Position numbers and translations under genes: made by a program
Source of the DNA: Clostridia bacterium
GTDB lineage: Bacteria; Bacillota; Clostridia; Oscillospirales; Ruminococcaceae
Assembly (NCBI GenBank): GCA_009929695.1
Contig: RZZW01000002.1
Span: forward strand, 96,527 to 160,526
Length of the DNA stretch: 64,000 bases
Direction: 5' to 3'
In this document: positions 14,225-53,323 of the stretch, one piece after another
Layout of the letters: every line of letters starts with the position of its first letter
Numbering within the stretch: position 1 is the stretch's first letter
Notes under the pieces: model-generated
What the model was told of the DNA's origin: nothing
Databases searched by the model: none
What the model saw: only the letters and a program-made list of their open reading frames with translations

Positions 14225-15391
14225 TTATTCACTTGCTTTGAAGTTATACACGGGCTTAATGATTTTGATAACCTTTACAGTATCGGCTATACGTTCCAGT
14301 ATTTCAGCAGCCGGTTTATAAGCCTGTGGTGCTTCGTCTAAGGTTTCCGAGCAAACAGAAGTAGTAAACACGCCTGTCATTGTTTCCCGGTATTCCTCTA
14401 ACGGTATTTCTGCCTTTGCTTTTGTGCGGCTCATAAGCCGTCCTGCACCGTGAGGCGCCGAGCAGTTCCAGTCCTCATTACCGAGGCCCATACCGAGAAT
14501 ACAACCGTCACGCATATTCATAGGAATAAGCACGGTGCGTCCTGCCTGTGCAGCAATAGCGCCCTTGCGTACCATACCTTCATCATCAATGTAGTTATGT
14601 ACTGTGTGGAAGCTGTCTATTGCTTTCCAGCCCATTTGTTTACAAACAACCGCCGCTATGCGTTCACGGTTATATCTTGCAAATATCTGACACTGCTTCA
14701 TATCGTAAAGGTAATTTTCTCTGTCTGCACCCTCTACATAGCAGAGATCACGGGGGATTTTAGGTGTTTCCTTTTTAAGAGCTTTCAGAGCCTCAGATAT
14801 TTCACGTTCACGCCCTTCTGCCTTTAATTGAGCTATGAGCGCCGCCCGTTTCTCTTTCGGGGAGCTGAGCGTTTCAATGGCGGTGTTCTGGTATATTTCG
14901 GCAACCTGCTTTCCGAGGTTACGGCTGCCGGTGTGGATAATGAGATATTTTCCACCGTCTGAATCTTCGTCAACCTCTATGAAATGATTACCACCGCCAA
15001 GCGTACCAAGAGAGGCGTGTAAGTGTTCAACGTTTCTCAGTTTCTTGTAGCACACCAAGCTGTCAATCAGCGAGTAGTGACCGTATTCACTGTGAACGTT
15101 CATGCCTGAGGGTACATTATCACGGATAACGCTATCGAGTTTTTCATAGTCAATGGGGATATTACCGAGGCTCACGGTGAACATACCGCAACCAATATCC
15201 ACACCGACAATGTTCGGGATAACCTTATCACCGAGATTTGCGGTAAAACCGATTACACACCCAGCGCCAGCGTGAACATCCGGCATGATCCGTACCTTGC
15301 AATTTTCAAAAGGCTTTTGAGCAAGCAAAAGGTCAATCTGTGCCTGAGCTTCCGGCTCAATGGTCTTTGCAAATATTTTCAAGTCTTTCAT
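14225..15391 (-). CDS. rtcB: RtcB-family RNA ligase
   Basis: 388 residues with all RtcB hallmarks: PDVHAGAGCVIG, VGVDIGCGM (metal Cys), LGGGNHFIE, HTGSRNLGKQ and SAPHGAGRLMSRT (guanylylated His region). RtcB joins 2',3'-cyclic phosphate or 3'-phosphate ends to 5'-OH ends using GTP and Mn. In a phage it could repair tRNAs cut by host anticodon nucleases. It is shorter than the 480-residue bacterial form, like the compact variant common in phages. It overlaps the upstream zinc-ribbon gene (ATGA). Confidence 0.93.
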   Translation of the reverse strand: MKDLKIFAKTIEPEAQAQIDLLLAQKPFENCKVRIMPDVHAGAGCVIGFTANLGDKVIPNIVGVDIGCGMFTVSLGNIPIDYEKLDSVIRDNVPSGMNVHSEYGHYSLIDSLVCYKKLRNVEHLHASLGTLGGGNHFIEVDEDSDGGKYLIIHTGSRNLGKQVAEIYQNTAIETLSSPKEKRAALIAQLKAEGREREISEALKALKKETPKIPRDLCYVEGADRENYLYDMKQCQIFARYNRERIAAVVCKQMGWKAIDSFHTVHNYIDDEGMVRKGAIAAQAGRTVLIPMNMRDGCILGMGLGNEDWNCSAPHGAGRLMSRTKAKAEIPLEEYRETMTGVFTTSVCSETLDEAPQAYKPAAEILERIADTVKVIKIIKPVYNFKASE

Positions 15392-15564
15392 TGTGTATTT
15401 TCCTCCTTCTTAATGAGGTTAAGGTTTTCGGCTAAGTCCGTTTCAAGCTCAACCGTTATATATTCATAGCCACAGCTCACACATTTTCTTTTCCTTTTTA
15501 CAGATTCACAGTCTGTGCGGCTGTCAACAACCTTTGTTTTCCCTGCACATTTGGGACAGTTCAT
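15388..15564 (-). CDS. NrdR-like zinc-ribbon mini-protein (58 aa)
   Basis: Missing from the ORF track. It begins MNCPKCAGKTKVVDSR and has CVSCGYEYITVE, closely resembling the N-terminal zinc ribbon of the NrdR repressor, but it ends at 58 residues without the ATP-cone. AAGGAGG precedes the ATG and the stop overlaps rtcB. It may bind DNA or RNA as a small zinc-ribbon protein; a link to ribonucleotide reductase control is only suggested by resemblance. Confidence 0.78.
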   Translation of the reverse strand: MNCPKCAGKTKVVDSRTDCESVKRKRKCVSCGYEYITVELETDLAENLNLIKKEENTQ

Positions 15565-46131: not shown

Positions 46132-46198
46132 GCGATGTCCCGCTTCGGTTTGTGCTATATTTTGCTATTGTGCATTGGCTGTTGCTTTCTTGTGACAC

Positions 46199-46400
46199 CG
46201 TAGGGCGGGGGCTTGCTCCCGCCGAAACTTACGGCTTATGGTTGCAACGGCGGGAGCAAGCCCCCGCCCTACGGTGCACGTTGCAAATTCACCGTGGATT
46301 GTAGGGGACGGCGTCCTCGACGTCCCGCTTCGGTTTGTACAAACTCACCTCATCCGTCGCTCCTTCGTCGCGCCACCTTCCCCCGAGGGAGAAGGCTTTC
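46199..46400. repeat. Inverted hairpin-repeat pair and other dispersed repeats
   Basis: A GTAGGGCGGGGG inverted pair like that at 38823, then a GTAGGGGACGG module, then a CATCCGTCGCTCCTTCGTCGCG repeat related to the one at the window's right end. The region between the EamA and RNR-like genes (396 bases) has no gene; a TTGTAT-17-TAAAAT promoter candidate lies near 46470-46500. Confidence 0.75.
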
Positions 46401-46527
46401 GTAGACCGCCATATATTTTAATAGTATAATACCGCGCAAACGGCAATAGTGCAAGGGATAATTTGCACTTGTATATTATGCTATAAAATGTTAAAATAAA
46501 GTTATATATAACTATGGAGGAACGCTA

Positions 46528-49500
46528 ATGTCTATGCAGGACATATCCAAGAGCGCGCTTAGACACCTTGAGAAAAATTGTCTCATGCGCAACAAAAGCG
46601 GCGGCTACTCGGAGAATGCCGAGGGGCTTTTCAGGCGCGTGTCGTCAGCGGCGGCTGCGGCAGACGCGCGATATGACAGCGACGCGGACACCGAGAAAAC
46701 CTCGGCTGAATTTTTTGAGCTGCTGACCTCGCTGCGATTTTTGCCCGGCAGCCTGACGCTGCTCAACGCAGGGCGCACTGACGGACAGCTTGCGTCCTGC
46801 TTTGTGCTGCCTGTTGAGGACAGCATGGAGAGCATTTTTGACGCTGTTAAAAACGCGGCCATCATCTATAAATCGGGTGGAAACATAGGCTTTTCATTCT
46901 CAAGCCTGCGCAAAAGCGGCAGCGAGGTGCACGGCTCGCACGGCGCCGCGGGCGGGCCTATTGGGTTTATGAGCGTGTTCGGCGCGGCGGCACAGGCTGT
47001 AAAGCAGGAGAACAAGCCACACGGCGAAAACCTTGCCGTATTGCGCATAGACCACCCCGATATCGAAAAATTTATCCGCTGCCACGAGGAAGTGGACGGC
47101 CTGCAAAACTTTCACACGGCCGTTATAATAACAGATGAATTTTTGAAAGCAGCCGAAAACAGCGAGAAATTTAAGCTGACAGACCCGAACACCGGCAAGG
47201 CCAGCAAGCGCCTTAAAGCGAGCGAGCTCTTTGTGCGGCTTGTTGACGTTATGCGCCGCACAGGCGCGCCGACGGTGCTTTTTGAGAGCGCGATGCACGG
47301 CGAAGAGGCCGTCGCTCCATGCGGAGAGCAGCCGCTGATGGCGTATGAAGCGAGCAACATCGGCAGCATAAACCTCGCCAAAATGCTAAAGCGCGAGGAC
47401 GAGCTTTTCGTCATAGATTACGACAAGCTGCGCGAAACCATAACGACGGCTGTGCATTTTCTCGATAATATCATCGACGTAAACAGCTATCCGTTTGAAA
47501 AAATAAGCCACGTCACACGCCAAACCCGCAAGATTGGGCTTGGCGTTATGGGGTTTGCGGACATGCTGTGGCAGCTCGGCATACCCTATAATTCCGACGA
47601 CGCGGCCGAGCTTGCGTCGAGCCTCATGGCGTTTATAAACGCTGAAAGCCACGCCGCGTCGTTTGACCTAGCTGAAAAGCGCGGCGCATACCCCACCTAC
47701 CTCGAAAACGCGGAGAACAATCCGCTTGCAATGCGCAACAAAATAGTGACGGCGATAGCGCCCGAGAGCGTGCTGTCTGACATTTGCGAGTGTGCCGAGG
47801 GCATTGAGCCGCGCAAAAGCGTGCTGCAAAACGGCAAGCTGCACCCGCTTTTGGTGGAATGCCTCATCGCGGCAAAGGTGTATTCAAGCGCGCTCGAACA
47901 GCTTATCACCGACGCCGGCACGCTTGCCGACATCGACAGCGTGCCGCAGGACATAAAAGAGGTGTTTGTATGCGCCGACACCGCAAGCCCCATTTCACAG
48001 CTAAAGCTCGAGGCGGCGTTTCAGAAAAACACCGACGGCGCTGTCTCAAAGACTATAGTTTTTGACGCAAATGCGTCCGCTGTTGACATTGCGGACATAT
48101 TTTTGCGCTCGCACGACACCGGCTGCATGATGTTTAAAGCTAAATGCCTTGATACGGTGGATGCGCCTGTGCAAAAAAACACAAGACGGCTCGCGCAGGT
48201 GACGGAGATACCGCGCACAGCGCTAGAGGTGGCCAGCAGCACGACAGAGCGCTTTCGCTCGCCGTGCGGGACGATGACAGTCACCGTGAGCTACGACAGG
48301 CTCGGCGTGTGCGAGGTTTACACGCACGGCTGCGAAAACTGCGGCTGCACAGCATACCTAAAAGCAACTCAGCGCCTTGCTGACCTTGCGCTGCGAAGCG
48401 GAGTGCCGCCCGAAAACGTTTGCACACAGCTGCGCGGCATAAAATGCGAGGTTGCGATGAGCAGCCCCGCCATGCGCGGAGTGTCCTGCCCTGACGCGAT
48501 AGCGTCTGTGATAGACCGCGCCGCTGCACTAAGCCGCACAATGCAGGACGAATATGTAGAGCCTGACCCCGAAGAGACTACAACCCTCGCCGCGCCCGAA
48601 GAAGAAATACCTCTCACCGAGGATATTTCCGCCGAGGAGCTTGAGGCGGAGGCAGCGATTGAAGCACAGGAGACTGCCGCTGAAAATATTTCCGAACATG
48701 AAAATCAAGAAGCGCCCGAAGAAGCTTTGGCCGAGGAATCGGCGGCGGAAGTGGAATATCCTTTGCCAGATGAGCAGCCCGAAAGCGCCGAACCCGCTGA
48801 GGAATTGCCGCAAAACGACGAGCCGCTCGACGACGAAAAAACCTCGCCATTTAAAGCCATAACGAGCGAGGAAATAGCGGAGCACCTTGCCGCCGTTGAG
48901 GACGACGATGAGCACAGTCATAAAGCACAGCCCGCTCTGCCCGCCGCAAACAGCTTAAAGCCCATTTTAGTCACTATGACCGATGAAAAAAATGCTGACG
49001 CGCCGCAAACTCTGCGCCGCATTTTGACATACAACGAAGACGTGTCGGACAGCGTGTTTGAGGACGCCCCGCTGTTTGGAGATTTGCCGGACGGCATAGA
49101 TGATGGCGACGACGGAGGCCAAAAGGCAGAGCACGAAGTGGTTGCGCCGCAGGTGCTTGCGCCCATGACAGATTTTGACGACGAGCAGGACGACGCGGAA
49201 ATTGAGATATCAGAGCTGCTTGAAAACAACTTTTTCGAGAGCACCGACTCCGCAAAGCTTGCGCAGAGCATCTTTGAATCCTTCGCCGCGATAGACAGCC
49301 TAGATGACGAGACTGACGAAAGCGACGAATTACTGCTTGGAAATGAGCTCTCGCTCGACTTTGGCATCGACGACGAAAAGCCGGAGGAACAGCAGCTTGA
49401 TGCACCTTCAGACGTTGAAAACACCGATGCGCCCGCTGATGTAGAAGGTGCTAAACCGGACGCAGAACCTGCCAAAGACGACAGCGAAGCCAAAGAAGCT

Positions 49501-49602
49501 GCGCCGAACGACCGCATTTGCGCCGTCTGCGGCAGCGAAGCCGACATAGTGGGCAACAAAATAGTATGCCCCGTTTGCGGCTTTACACGCACGCCGCTGT
49601 GA
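46528..49602 (+). CDS. Class II ribonucleotide reductase paralogue lacking catalytic residues, with acidic tail and zinc ribbon
   Basis: 1024 residues. Residues 1-500 align with class II RNR: SCFVLPVEDSMESIFDAVKNAA, GSINLAKML, RKIGLGVMGFADML. Key positions differ: NPCGE is APCGE (Ala263), the second redox Cys in SCNLGS is Ser276, and PTGT is PESV (412-415). A TSCPD-like domain follows (VYTHGCENCGC..., about 590-670), then about 330 acidic disordered residues and a CxxC zinc ribbon. Probably not a functional reductase. Confidence 0.78.
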   Translation: MSMQDISKSALRHLEKNCLMRNKSGGYSENAEGLFRRVSSAAAAADARYDSDADTEKTSAEFFELLTSLRFLPGSLTLLNAGRTDGQLASCFVLPVEDSMESIFDAVKNAAIIYKSGGNIGFSFSSLRKSGSEVHGSHGAAGGPIGFMSVFGAAAQAVKQENKPHGENLAVLRIDHPDIEKFIRCHEEVDGLQNFHTAVIITDEFLKAAENSEKFKLTDPNTGKASKRLKASELFVRLVDVMRRTGAPTVLFESAMHGEEAVAPCGEQPLMAYEASNIGSINLAKMLKREDELFVIDYDKLRETITTAVHFLDNIIDVNSYPFEKISHVTRQTRKIGLGVMGFADMLWQLGIPYNSDDAAELASSLMAFINAESHAASFDLAEKRGAYPTYLENAENNPLAMRNKIVTAIAPESVLSDICECAEGIEPRKSVLQNGKLHPLLVECLIAAKVYSSALEQLITDAGTLADIDSVPQDIKEVFVCADTASPISQLKLEAAFQKNTDGAVSKTIVFDANASAVDIADIFLRSHDTGCMMFKAKCLDTVDAPVQKNTRRLAQVTEIPRTALEVASSTTERFRSPCGTMTVTVSYDRLGVCEVYTHGCENCGCTAYLKATQRLADLALRSGVPPENVCTQLRGIKCEVAMSSPAMRGVSCPDAIASVIDRAAALSRTMQDEYVEPDPEETTTLAAPEEEIPLTEDISAEELEAEAAIEAQETAAENISEHENQEAPEEALAEESAAEVEYPLPDEQPESAEPAEELPQNDEPLDDEKTSPFKAITSEEIAEHLAAVEDDDEHSHKAQPALPAANSLKPILVTMTDEKNADAPQTLRRILTYNEDVSDSVFEDAPLFGDLPDGIDDGDDGGQKAEHEVVAPQVLAPMTDFDDEQDDAEIEISELLENNFFESTDSAKLAQSIFESFAAIDSLDDETDESDELLLGNELSLDFGIDDEKPEEQQLDAPSDVENTDAPADVEGAKPDAEPAKDDSEAKEAAPNDRICAVCGSEADIVGNKIVCPVCGFTRTPL

Positions 49603-50060
49603 GCTTGGACAGCTTGCAGGTGAGAAAAATACGTCGCGGACAAAGATTTTTTTGAGCATTTTGCCGAAGCATGACGACGCAAATTCAACAGCGCGTAGAG
49701 GTCAATTTTCGCACGAAAACGCAAAAATAAATATTGCTCGGCAACAAAACTTCATATTCTCGACATGTATTTTGAAAAAAAGATGTTATTGTAAAATAAA
49801 GGGTAAAATCTCAAACTTTCAACTTTTCAACCGAGTTTTACACATTGTATAACGGTTTTTGGGCATAAGTTGTTGAAAACTCGGTTGAAAGTGTTGACAA
49901 ATGGCTTAAAATCGTAAAAGTTTTCAACATAGCATGTCCGTGTTTACAAATTGGAAATAACAGACAGTTGATAAACAAAAAGTATTTTTAAAGCGGGAAA
50001 ATACAATTATGCTTGTCAAGTGCAAAAAACAACAAAATTATAGTTGACAAAGGAAAATAT
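49603..50060. other. AT-rich gap with a 15-bp inverted repeat
   Basis: No gene is supported here. TTTCAACCGAGTTTT (49825-49839) and AAAACTCGGTTGAAA (49876-49890) are perfect complements 36 bases apart, with TTGACA just after (49894). The spacing fits a protein-binding or cruciform site more than a terminator. The rest is low-complexity AT-rich sequence. Confidence 0.45.
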
Positions 50061-50717
50061 ATGAAAAAATGGTTATACAAGGCTGAATACAAATACGGAA
50101 AGTATTGCATACCTAATTTGATGCTTGTGATAGTGATAGGTCAGGCGATGGTGTATGTCGCGGACATGTTTGCGCCGAGCGCAGGGCTGTCGTCGACGAT
50201 GGCGCTTTTCTGGCCGTCCGTTATGCAGGGGCAGGTGTGGCGCGTATTCACATTTTTATTTGTGCCGCAAACCTCAAGCAGCGTGATTTGGCTGCTGATT
50301 TCGCTTTATTTTTACTATTTTCTCGGCACGACGCTCGAGCGGACGTGGGGAGATTTTAAATTTAACGTATACTATTTTTGCGGCGCGATAGGCGCTGTTG
50401 TCGCCGCGGCGCTCACAGGCTACGGCAGCAATTTTTATTTGAATTTATCGCTTTTCCTCGCGTTTGCAATGCTTTATCCCGACATGCAGGTGCTTTTGTT
50501 TTTCATAATTCCCGTAAAAGTGAAATATCTCGCGTGGATTTACGCCGCGGTGTGCGCGTTCAACTTCGTCATAGGCGGCATGACAGCCCGCGTGAGCATA
50601 ATTTTCTCACTAATAAATTTCTTCCTATTTTTCGGTTCCGATTTCTTTACAAGCGTCAAAACCTATTTCAAATATTCAAAAACGCGCAGACAGTGGCGGA
50701 ATAATAATAGGCGGTAG
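50061..50717 (+). CDS. Rhomboid-like membrane protein without catalytic residues
   Basis: 218 residues from ATG 50061 (MKKWLYKAEYKYGKY). Five to six membrane segments with the rhomboid/derlin-type WRVFTFLFVPQ and LGTTLERTWGDFKFNVYYFCG elements. The GxSG serine and helix-6 histidine of active rhomboids are absent, so it is probably a pseudo-rhomboid. A basic tail follows. Substrate or partner unknown. Confidence 0.68.
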   Translation: MKKWLYKAEYKYGKYCIPNLMLVIVIGQAMVYVADMFAPSAGLSSTMALFWPSVMQGQVWRVFTFLFVPQTSSSVIWLLISLYFYYFLGTTLERTWGDFKFNVYYFCGAIGAVVAAALTGYGSNFYLNLSLFLAFAMLYPDMQVLLFFIIPVKVKYLAWIYAAVCAFNFVIGGMTARVSIIFSLINFFLFFGSDFFTSVKTYFKYSKTRRQWRNNNRR

Positions 50718-51228: not shown

Positions 51229-51552
51229 ATGAAAATGATAACTGCTATTATAAATAAAGACGACTCTAACAATGCGCTGTCGTCGCTTACAAAGGCGGGG
51301 TTCAGCGTCACAAAGCTTGCCACGACGGGCGGCTTTTTGATGGCGGGCAACGTCACGCTGATGGTAGGCACAGACGACGAAAAGGTGGACGCCTGCATTG
51401 AGATAATCGCGGGCTGCTCACGTCAGCGCAAGGAGGTTGTGCCGAGCACAGCGTCCTACGGTATCGGCGTCACAACGGCGTATCCGCTTGAGGTCACAGT
51501 GGGCGGCGCGACGATTTTCGTCACAAACGTCGAGCGCTTTGAAAAGCTGTAA
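51229..51552 (+). CDS. darA: Cyclic di-AMP receptor, PII-like
   Basis: 107 residues: MKMITAIINKDD...ALTKAGFSVTKLATTGGFLMAGNVTLMVGTDDEKVD, with GVTTAYPLEVTVGGATIFV at the end, the DarA/PstA family. It binds cyclic di-AMP in a trimer. GGAGG lies before the ATG. It overlaps the next gene by one base (TAATG), the usual darA-holB arrangement of Firmicutes. Confidence 0.93.
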   Translation: MKMITAIINKDDSNNALSSLTKAGFSVTKLATTGGFLMAGNVTLMVGTDDEKVDACIEIIAGCSRQRKEVVPSTASYGIGVTTAYPLEVTVGGATIFVTNVERFEKL

Positions 51553-52451
51553 TGCTTGAAAAAATAGTCGGAAACAAAGAATTTGTCTCGTGCGTTTCCG
51601 CCGCAATGCACGCGGGGCGTCTTGCCCACAGCCTGCTTATCTGCGGCGAGGAGGGCACAGGGGCAGACTATGCCGCAAAATGTCTGGCCGCTGATTACCT
51701 TTACCCCGACGGCGGCGAGGGCGCGCGGCTCGTGATGGAAAACGCCGCTGGCGAATATGTGCGCATAGACGGCGAGGGCGCGTCGGGCGACATCAAAATC
51801 GAGCGCATACGCAATATCCGCAAAGAGGTTTTTTCAACAACGCTTTGCGCCACAGGCAGAGCCGTGCACATCGCGGGCGCGCAGAAAATGGGCGCGCCGA
51901 GCGCAAACGCGCTTTTAAAGGTGCTTGAAGAGCCGCCCGAAAACGTTATATTTATCCTCACCGCGCCGAGCGAAGCGGCGGTGCTGCCCACAATCCGCAG
52001 CCGCTGCTGCACGTATACGCTCTCCCCTGTCAGCCGTGAGGAATGTGCGGCGTATATCGCAAAAAATTTCCCAATGCACAAAAATAAAGCCGAGCGTTTC
52101 TCCGATATCTTCGGCGGCAAGATTGGACTTTGCGTGAAGTGTCTTTCTGACATGCACATTCAAAACCATCTTAACGACGCCGAAAAGCTGTTTTCCCTCG
52201 CGCAAAACGACGACGAATATGCGGCGGCAGCGCTGCTTTCGTCTTATGAAAAGGACAAGGACGGCGCAAAAAACATGCTCGCAATGTTCGCGCAGGTGTG
52301 CGCCGCGGCGCTTAAACAGCCGGGCTTAAAAAATGCTGATTGCGCCGTGCGGTGCATTGAAGCCGCGGGTACAGCTCTCTCGCAAATATCCTCAAATGTA
52401 AATCAGAAGCTTGTGCTGTGCGTGCTTGGAGCACACATCGCGCAAGCCTGA
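51552..52451 (+). CDS. holB: DNA polymerase III subunit delta prime
   Basis: 299 residues. AHSLLICGEEGTGADYAAKCLA replaces a normal Walker A, and the zinc-binding Cys cluster is missing. GAQKMGAPSANALLKVLEEPPENVIFILTA and TIRSRCC are the typical clamp-loader sensor and arginine-finger regions. It is part of the clamp loader. It lies between darA and ricT as in B. subtilis. Confidence 0.92.
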   Translation: MLEKIVGNKEFVSCVSAAMHAGRLAHSLLICGEEGTGADYAAKCLAADYLYPDGGEGARLVMENAAGEYVRIDGEGASGDIKIERIRNIRKEVFSTTLCATGRAVHIAGAQKMGAPSANALLKVLEEPPENVIFILTAPSEAAVLPTIRSRCCTYTLSPVSREECAAYIAKNFPMHKNKAERFSDIFGGKIGLCVKCLSDMHIQNHLNDAEKLFSLAQNDDEYAAAALLSSYEKDKDGAKNMLAMFAQVCAAALKQPGLKNADCAVRCIEAAGTALSQISSNVNQKLVLCVLGAHIAQA

Positions 52452-52462
52452 AAGGAATATGA

Positions 52463-53323
52463 ATGACAAAGGTAATAGGCGTAAGCTTTAAGAAAAACGG
52501 AAAAATGTATTATTTCGACCCCGCCTCCGCGAACGTGGAGAAGGGCGATTACGTCATAGTGGACACCGCCCGCGGCACAGAGTGCGGCGAGGTGACAAAG
52601 GGCATACACGAGGTGCCAAACGCGTCTGTTGTGCAGCCGCTAAAGCCAATTGTGCGCATAGCGGACAGCATGGACATCAAGCGCATGAAGCAAAACCGAG
52701 AGGACGAGCGCCGCGCGTTCACCGTCGCAGAGGGTCGCATCGCGCACCACAAGCTCGCGATGCAGCTTGTTGACGCAGAGTATACGCTCGACCGCAGCAA
52801 GATTGTATTTTATTTCACAGCCGACGGCAGAATAGATTTCCGCGAGCTTGTAAAAGACCTCGCGGGCGTTTTCCATACGCGCATTGAGCTGAGACAAATC
52901 GGCGTGCGCGACGAGACGCGAATGGTCGGCGGGCTTGGCATATGCGGTCAGCCGTTTTGTTGCAGCCGCTTTTTGAAGGATTTTCACCCTGTCTCGATAA
53001 AAATGGCAAAGGAGCAGGGCTTGTCGCTCAACCCCGCAAAAATAAGCGGAACGTGCGGCAGGCTTATGTGCTGCCTTGCATACGAGCAGCCCGCGTATGA
53101 TTACCTCGCAAGAATAACGCCGGGGCTAGGCAGCCTTGTGCAAACGCCCGACGGCTACGGCAGCGTGGTTGAAGTAAACCTAGCCGGCGGCACACTGCGC
53201 GTGAGGCTTGACCCGCCCGCAATAGGCACAAAATTTTATAAAGCAGCCGAGTGCCGCTACATCAGCGGCGGCAAACGCGCACCGTCAGCACCCGACAAAG
53301 AGCCCGAAACAGAAAATGAATAG
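52463..53323 (+). CDS. ricT: RicT/PSP1-domain protein
   Basis: 286 residues. The PSP1 region contains GLGICGQPFCCSRFLKDF and SGTCGRLMCCLAYE, the cysteines of the Fe-S-binding RicT (YaaT) protein, part of the Ric complex that guides RNase Y mRNA processing and affects sporulation. AAAGGA precedes the ATG. The tail is an acidic, Pro-rich extension. Confidence 0.92.
   Translation: MTKVIGVSFKKNGKMYYFDPASANVEKGDYVIVDTARGTECGEVTKGIHEVPNASVVQPLKPIVRIADSMDIKRMKQNREDERRAFTVAEGRIAHHKLAMQLVDAEYTLDRSKIVFYFTADGRIDFRELVKDLAGVFHTRIELRQIGVRDETRMVGGLGICGQPFCCSRFLKDFHPVSIKMAKEQGLSLNPAKISGTCGRLMCCLAYEQPAYDYLARITPGLGSLVQTPDGYGSVVEVNLAGGTLRVRLDPPAIGTKFYKAAECRYISGGKRAPSAPDKEPETENE

Follow-up and report, generated by a model that had tools for sequence, protein, structure and literature searches.

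A degenerate class II ribonucleotide reductase gene, probably decommissioned in place, at the ancestral nrdJ locus of a Clostridia bacterium

Ribonucleotide reductase (RNR) is an essential enzyme, and its active site is among the best known. Within the 64 000-nucleotide stretch of Clostridia bacterium DNA that was analysed (the window), a 1024-residue reading frame with the fold of a class II RNR (NrdJ) carries replacements at several catalytic positions, which raises the question of whether it is a second, diverted copy or the cell's own nrdJ and, in the latter case, of what keeps it open. The original prediction, made from the sequence, described a catalytically dead class II RNR with an acidic tail and a zinc ribbon, and suggested that it might be a paralogue with a nucleotide-sensing or scaffolding role.

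An NrdJ fold with a dismantled active site

Homology of both the barrel and the N-terminal alpha domain to NrdJ was found with Pfam (Ribonuc_red_lgC, E-value 5.6e-87; Ribonuc_red_lgN, 8.9e-13; besides TSCPD, 2.9e-14), NCBIfam, alignment and Foldseek, in keeping with descent from a class II RNR. The top NCBIfam model is PRK08665 (B12-dependent RNR), where the score of 670 bits falls short of the cut-off (961), and the curated NrdJ_Z cut-off is exceeded (429 versus 399.95 bits), so that the protein would be annotated as a B12-dependent RNR and a false B12 requirement would be assigned to the organism. The order of alpha domain, barrel, TSCPD domain, linker and ribbon is that of the dimeric class II RNRs with a zinc domain (PRK08665/TIGR02504 type, such as Stackebrandtia nassauensis NrdJd, PMC5704485), with 35-44% identity to cross-phylum NrdJs of this type and a locus in common with a family member. 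The closest solved relative, by both alignment and Foldseek, is Thermotoga maritima NrdJ (PDB 1xje and 3o0o; TM 0.80 on target, 31% identity). The AF2 pLDDT of the core is mostly 80-98; however, a good core model is to be expected and is a weak sign of folding, because the alignment used by AF2 consists of canonical NrdJs. The features of the gene and of its surroundings are collected in table 1.

Table 1. Features of the degenerate nrdJ and of its downstream neighbours (positions in the window).
Feature	Position	Strand	Basis
Shine-Dalgarno-like GGAGG, 8 nt upstream of ATG	46516..46520	+	printed sequence
Degenerate nrdJ (putative class II RNR pseudoenzyme), 1024 aa	46528..49602	+	ORF from ATG, Pfam, NCBIfam, alignments
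N-terminal all-alpha RNR domain, aa 7-85	46546..46782	+	Pfam PF00317; model pLDDT about 90
RNR barrel, aa 89-533	46792..48126	+	Pfam PF02867; Foldseek best match 1xje, TM 0.80 on target
Cys91, first redox Cys (T. maritima C134), kept	46798..46800	+	alignments
Loop 2, aa 159-169, KQGGTRRGANM to KQENKPHGENL, destroyed	47002..47034	+	alignments
Site of 9-aa deletion (NRDNVVPxxGEIE stretch), before finger loop	47303..47307	+	alignment
Ala263 in place of catalytic Asn (T. maritima N320)	47314..47316	+	alignments
Cys265-Gly-Glu267 (thiyl Cys, Glu), kept	47320..47328	+	alignments
Ser276 in place of second redox Cys (T. maritima C333)	47353..47355	+	alignments
Glu-Ser-Val 413-415 in place of phosphate-loop Thr-Gly-Thr (PTGT to PESV)	47764..47772	+	alignments
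TSCPD domain, aa 580-665	48265..48522	+	Pfam PF12637
Expanded acidic, predicted-disordered linker, aa 676-992	48553..49503	+	alignment, composition, AF2; this species only
C-terminal zinc ribbon; zinc ligands Cys998, 1001, 1014 and 1017 kept, redox Cys pair lost	49519..49578	+	alignments; roles PMC5704485
Rhomboid-like membrane protein; constantly found downstream of nrdJ or of what is left of it	50013..50717	+	neighbour comparison
DarA-like c-di-AMP receptor, holB and PSP1 genes; synteny anchors	51229..53323	+	neighbour comparison

Two sets of sequences served for comparison, namely 30 NrdJs from named genomes of other phyla, obtained from a scan of genome contigs, all canonical and none a close relative, and 28 canonical NrdJs of the same family. 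Residues were mapped onto T. maritima NrdJ by alignment (N320 to A263, C322 to C265, E324 to E267, C333 to S276 and C134 to C91), and the catalytic, redox, phosphate-loop and loop 2 roles are those established for RNRs. NPCGE and APTG[T/S] are present in 58 of 58 NrdJs (30/30 cross-phylum and 28/28 of the family), whereas the 1024-residue protein has APCGE and APESV; the changes N263A, C276S and PTGT to PESV, along with the retention of Cys265 and Glu267, had been correctly recognized in the original prediction. Unlike T. maritima NrdJ, in which N320 and C333 occupy the active site, and unlike the PRK08665/TIGR02504-type enzymes in general, the protein has neither the catalytic Asn nor the second redox Cys, its phosphate loop, loop 2, YRDGSR and C-terminal redox Cys pair are lost, and its gene has no NrdR box. 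Thus, more sites are dead than had been listed, by taking into account loop 2 (QGG[T/S]RRGA in 28/28 canonical family NrdJs, QGGTRRGA being changed to QENKPHGE), the loss of YRDGSR, the 9-residue deletion and the redox cysteines of the ribbon. With the N-P-C-G-E triad and the active-site redox Cys pair each lacking one residue and APTG[T/S] changed, the sequence comparisons give good support to the conclusion that the protein is catalytically dead as a class II RNR, and no active homologue carrying the same substitutions was met in a limited literature search. The erosion extends beyond the active site: among 206 near-invariant columns (conserved in 29 or all 30 of the cross-phylum NrdJs) 131 are kept, compared with 197-200 in the six canonical family members checked.

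The acidic stretch and the Cys pairs that had been read as a tail and a zinc ribbon are indeed present, but the 'tail' is the linker between TSCPD domain and ribbon, expanded to approximately 317 residues; canonical relatives have linkers of widely differing length at the same position. Asp and Glu make up 29% of residues 682-1024, and most of the linker has an AF2 pLDDT below 50. Its conservation in related genomes was not borne out, as the acidic stretch is absent from every relative found, and a pattern scan of genome contigs that included the tail peptides MTDEKNAD and MTDFDDEQ gave, among the matches listed, none beyond residue 744; a conserved acidic domain was rejected on these grounds. 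The ribbon, in turn, is standard. A C-terminal zinc domain is common in class II RNRs, and in S. nassauensis NrdJ zinc was proposed to be bound by Cys 920, 923, 936 and 939, three of which were backed by zinc measurements, with C933 and C945 acting as electron shuttle (PMC5704485). The four zinc-ligand cysteines are present here in the C-x2-C...C-x2-C arrangement, as they are in the sister proteins G143, G151 and G153 (hence in 4 of 6 eroded proteins), whereas the shuttle positions are occupied by Lys1011 and Thr1022, so that the redox Cys pair is missing. The C-terminal CxxC pairs can be assigned to the cysteine-rich domain that is usual in class II RNRs, the predicted structure of which is retained and the turnover chemistry of which would be lost.

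The locus and its erosion within the genus

The gene is followed by the rhomboid-like gene and by those of the c-di-AMP receptor, holB and PSP1, and the identical order is found behind the canonical nrdJ of a genome of another genus (G041) and behind the eroded genes of G031, G154 and G143. In G151 the rhomboid-like neighbour lies on the same contig as the eroded gene, and in G153 it is adjacent to it, with the remaining anchors rearranged nearby. This synteny places the gene at the nrdJ locus of the family and identifies it as an in-place orthologue. No second PF02867 match was found in the genome, which is 91.8% complete so that a missing gene could sit in a gap. Therefore, the proposal of a paralogue was rejected, with a single copy found at an ancestral locus, and we consider it very probable that the gene is a dead orthologue of nrdJ in its original place.

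Eroded nrdJ genes are present in 6 of the 11 genomes sampled from the genus, i.e. that of the window, G031, G154, G143, G151 and G153. The G031 protein (713 residues) has SPCGS, with PTGT and the second active-site Cys retained, and that of G154 (631 residues) has DAVTA, the thiyl Cys being gone; both keep TSCPD and have lost the ribbon. The proteins of G143, G151 and G153 (425, 429 and 407 residues, respectively) keep the ribbon and have lost TSCPD and half of the barrel, i.e. the barrel front; they also lack the thiyl Cys and the whole effector region. At the otherwise present locus of G156, G149 and G155 nrdJ is absent, so that at least three species have lost it. Sister species thus show later stages, with larger deletions and then clean loss. 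The series observed at this one locus, from a normal gene outside the genus to dead sites, half-barrel and absence, with loss of the NrdR boxes, provides an order of dismantling of an essential radical enzyme.

In a full-length tree the three longer eroded proteins group together (95/89) on very long branches, and in a core-only tree with all six, also with long branches, a single clade has a p-AU of 0.31. Two other weak RNR matches within the family (G100 and G013) turned out to represent a class I pair and a further intact RNR. The half-barrel remnants (L036, L037 and L038; 407-429 residues), with their four-Cys ribbon end, might escape annotation as RNR. At the empty loci (L145, L147 and L148) a gene for a membrane protein that resembles YitT, by appearance only, directly precedes the rhomboid-like gene.

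Residual constraint, lost regulation and other reductases

The features of a plain pseudogene (stops, frameshifts and a neutral codon pattern) were not found. No stop occurs in 1024 codons, against approximately 8-10 expected under neutral decay to comparable divergence at GC 0.49-0.65, a calculation that assumes 60% remaining identity and gives 4.5 stops at GC 0.80. Codon-position differences between the window gene and that of G031 are 0.45, 0.37 and 0.58 for positions 1, 2 and 3. The dN/dS values, which rest on NG86 and are crude at such distances, are about 0.4-0.6 for eroded genes (window-G031, 0.42; G031-G154, 0.59; 0.71 for the most diverged pair, G151-G153), whereas canonical nrdJ gives 0.07-0.35 and the neighbour genes give 0.10-0.29 (0.18-0.29 in the G031-G154 pair for the rhomboid-like gene, holB and PSP1). 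Being above those of canonical nrdJ and neighbours and yet below 1, they indicate a constraint that is much relaxed but still present. Of 68 invariant residues in the shared core, 38 are retained in five or all six of the eroded proteins, and these seem to be structural for the most part; the TGT loop and C276 with its neighbours vary. By these patterns the gene is still translated in full, and its fold residues appear to be under weak purifying selection.

Regulation by NrdR was assessed by scoring pairs of upstream boxes against what we take to be the consensus. The median score of canonical nrdJ genes of the family is 24, whereas the six eroded genes score 15-18, which is the background level (17.5; Mann-Whitney p = 0.0003 versus canonical); random stretches of the window stay at or below 21 in 99.5% of cases. 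The background is lower in GC-rich genomes, and nrdD of the same genomes, used as the control, scores 24 in the organism's own genome and 20-23 in sister genomes. On these scores, the eroded nrdJ genes have lost their NrdR boxes. NrdR itself is encoded, intact, on contig C12 of the genome. Apart from it, a short NrdR-like zinc-ribbon stretch (MNCPKCAGKTKVVDSRTD..., about 58 residues to the stop) lies at positions 15343-15564 of the minus strand of the window.

The presence of an intact RNR elsewhere, which the original prediction had asked to be checked, was confirmed. Matches to NrdD were obtained in 11 of 11 genomes of the genus, and the cell's own genome encodes an intact class III enzyme, with NrdD in one 761-residue frame and NrdG adjoining, so that NrdJ is not the only RNR and is not needed by the cell; second NRDD matches had suggested a split nrdD, an idea rejected in view of the single frame. 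From its presence, class III RNR (NrdD and NrdG) presumably supplies deoxyribonucleotides in the genus. A class I small subunit is additionally present in G143, G149 and G150. A separate class II RNR in which NPCGE is kept is encoded in G151 and G153 and is complete in the latter (800 residues), and these are the only genomes in which a PduO-type adenosyltransferase was found; in these two species nrdJ looks to have been replaced by another class II enzyme. The additional genes lie at L141 (contig C47 of G153) and L142 (contig C18 of G151), the native nrdJ of both species being a half-barrel. A search for two adenosyltransferase families (PF01923 and PF02572) found none in the organism's own genome, G031 and G143.

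What the degenerate protein may still do

The reading that we favour, and regard as fairly probable, is that of an NrdJ taken out of service, a pseudoenzyme on which some structural constraint still acts and which is heading for loss. With deoxyribonucleotides supplied by NrdD/NrdG, the cell's original nrdJ would have been freed from catalysis in place. The losses seen in it, those of catalytic Asn, second active-site redox Cys, phosphate loop, loop 2, shuttle Cys pair and NrdR boxes, would leave it to persist as a non-catalytic RNR-like protein that is predicted to fold and to bind zinc. Its present role would most likely be a dispensable, inherited one in binding (oligomerisation, nucleotide or partner binding), too weak to stop loss in several sister species. 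That the gene has a present-day function of any kind seems somewhat probable. The alternative of a relic without function, in late decay, translated but idle, with the frame kept open by the recency of the loss of constraint or by selection against toxic truncations, is less probable but carries appreciable weight. It accounts for the lengths of the eroded branches (6.5-10 against a median of 0.42 over all rows), the different domains kept and lost by G031 and G154 and by the half-barrel species, the clean absence of the gene in three species and the missing NrdR box. However, all six frames are open at about 30-56% identity, the window gene has none of the 8-10 stops expected, position 2 has changed less than position 1 and position 1 less than position 3, and the zinc ligands persist in four of six proteins.

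A nucleotide sensor or scaffold, in which the barrel would bind dNTPs at the effector site and act on NrdD, replication or transcription, seems unlikely. The alignment shows D98, S99, R128, K159 and Q160 kept at positions that we take, from RNR structures, to be those of the effector site, the barrel is predicted to be folded, and the gene lies near holB and other replication-linked genes. However, loop 2, which serves in signalling, is destroyed, the half-barrel versions lack the effector region altogether, and the proximity to holB, being inherited from canonical nrdJ, is no evidence of a new link. Even less credible, to the point of being very improbable, is a changed but still radical-active enzyme, in which Cys265 and Glu267 would catalyse another reaction: C265, E267 and C91 are kept, but YRDGSR and loop 2 are gone, the genome has neither a PF01923 nor a PF02572 adenosyltransferase, and the thiyl Cys has been lost in the sisters as well (DAVTA in G154, and the half-barrels). 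More broadly, it is doubtful, if conceivable, that the NrdJ scaffold has been co-opted in the genus for a new non-catalytic role, e.g. nucleotide or partner binding that tunes NrdD or replication. If true, the co-opted NrdJ would be to bacteria what the R1 pseudoenzymes are to viruses, with a 317-residue acidic disordered arm added in this species.

Viruses provide the closest precedent for an RNR large subunit put to new use, i.e. the inactive R1 of betaherpesviruses (HCMV UL45, PMC5469499; HHV-6B, PMC11772975), in which the large-subunit fold is likewise kept and catalysis lost. However, the viral proteins are class I and have known new roles, whereas the degenerate NrdJ is class II, bacterial and at its ancestral chromosomal locus. 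No report of a bacterial RNR pseudoenzyme was found in a limited literature search.

Upstream of the degenerate nrdJ, at positions 46196-46276, a perfect 29-nt inverted repeat encloses a 23-nt loop. Its 20-nt core occurs in 111 copies in the genome (57 + 54, with up to 1 mismatch), mostly as pairs of arms with fixed spacing, and the repeat can be assigned to a REP- or MITE-like family.
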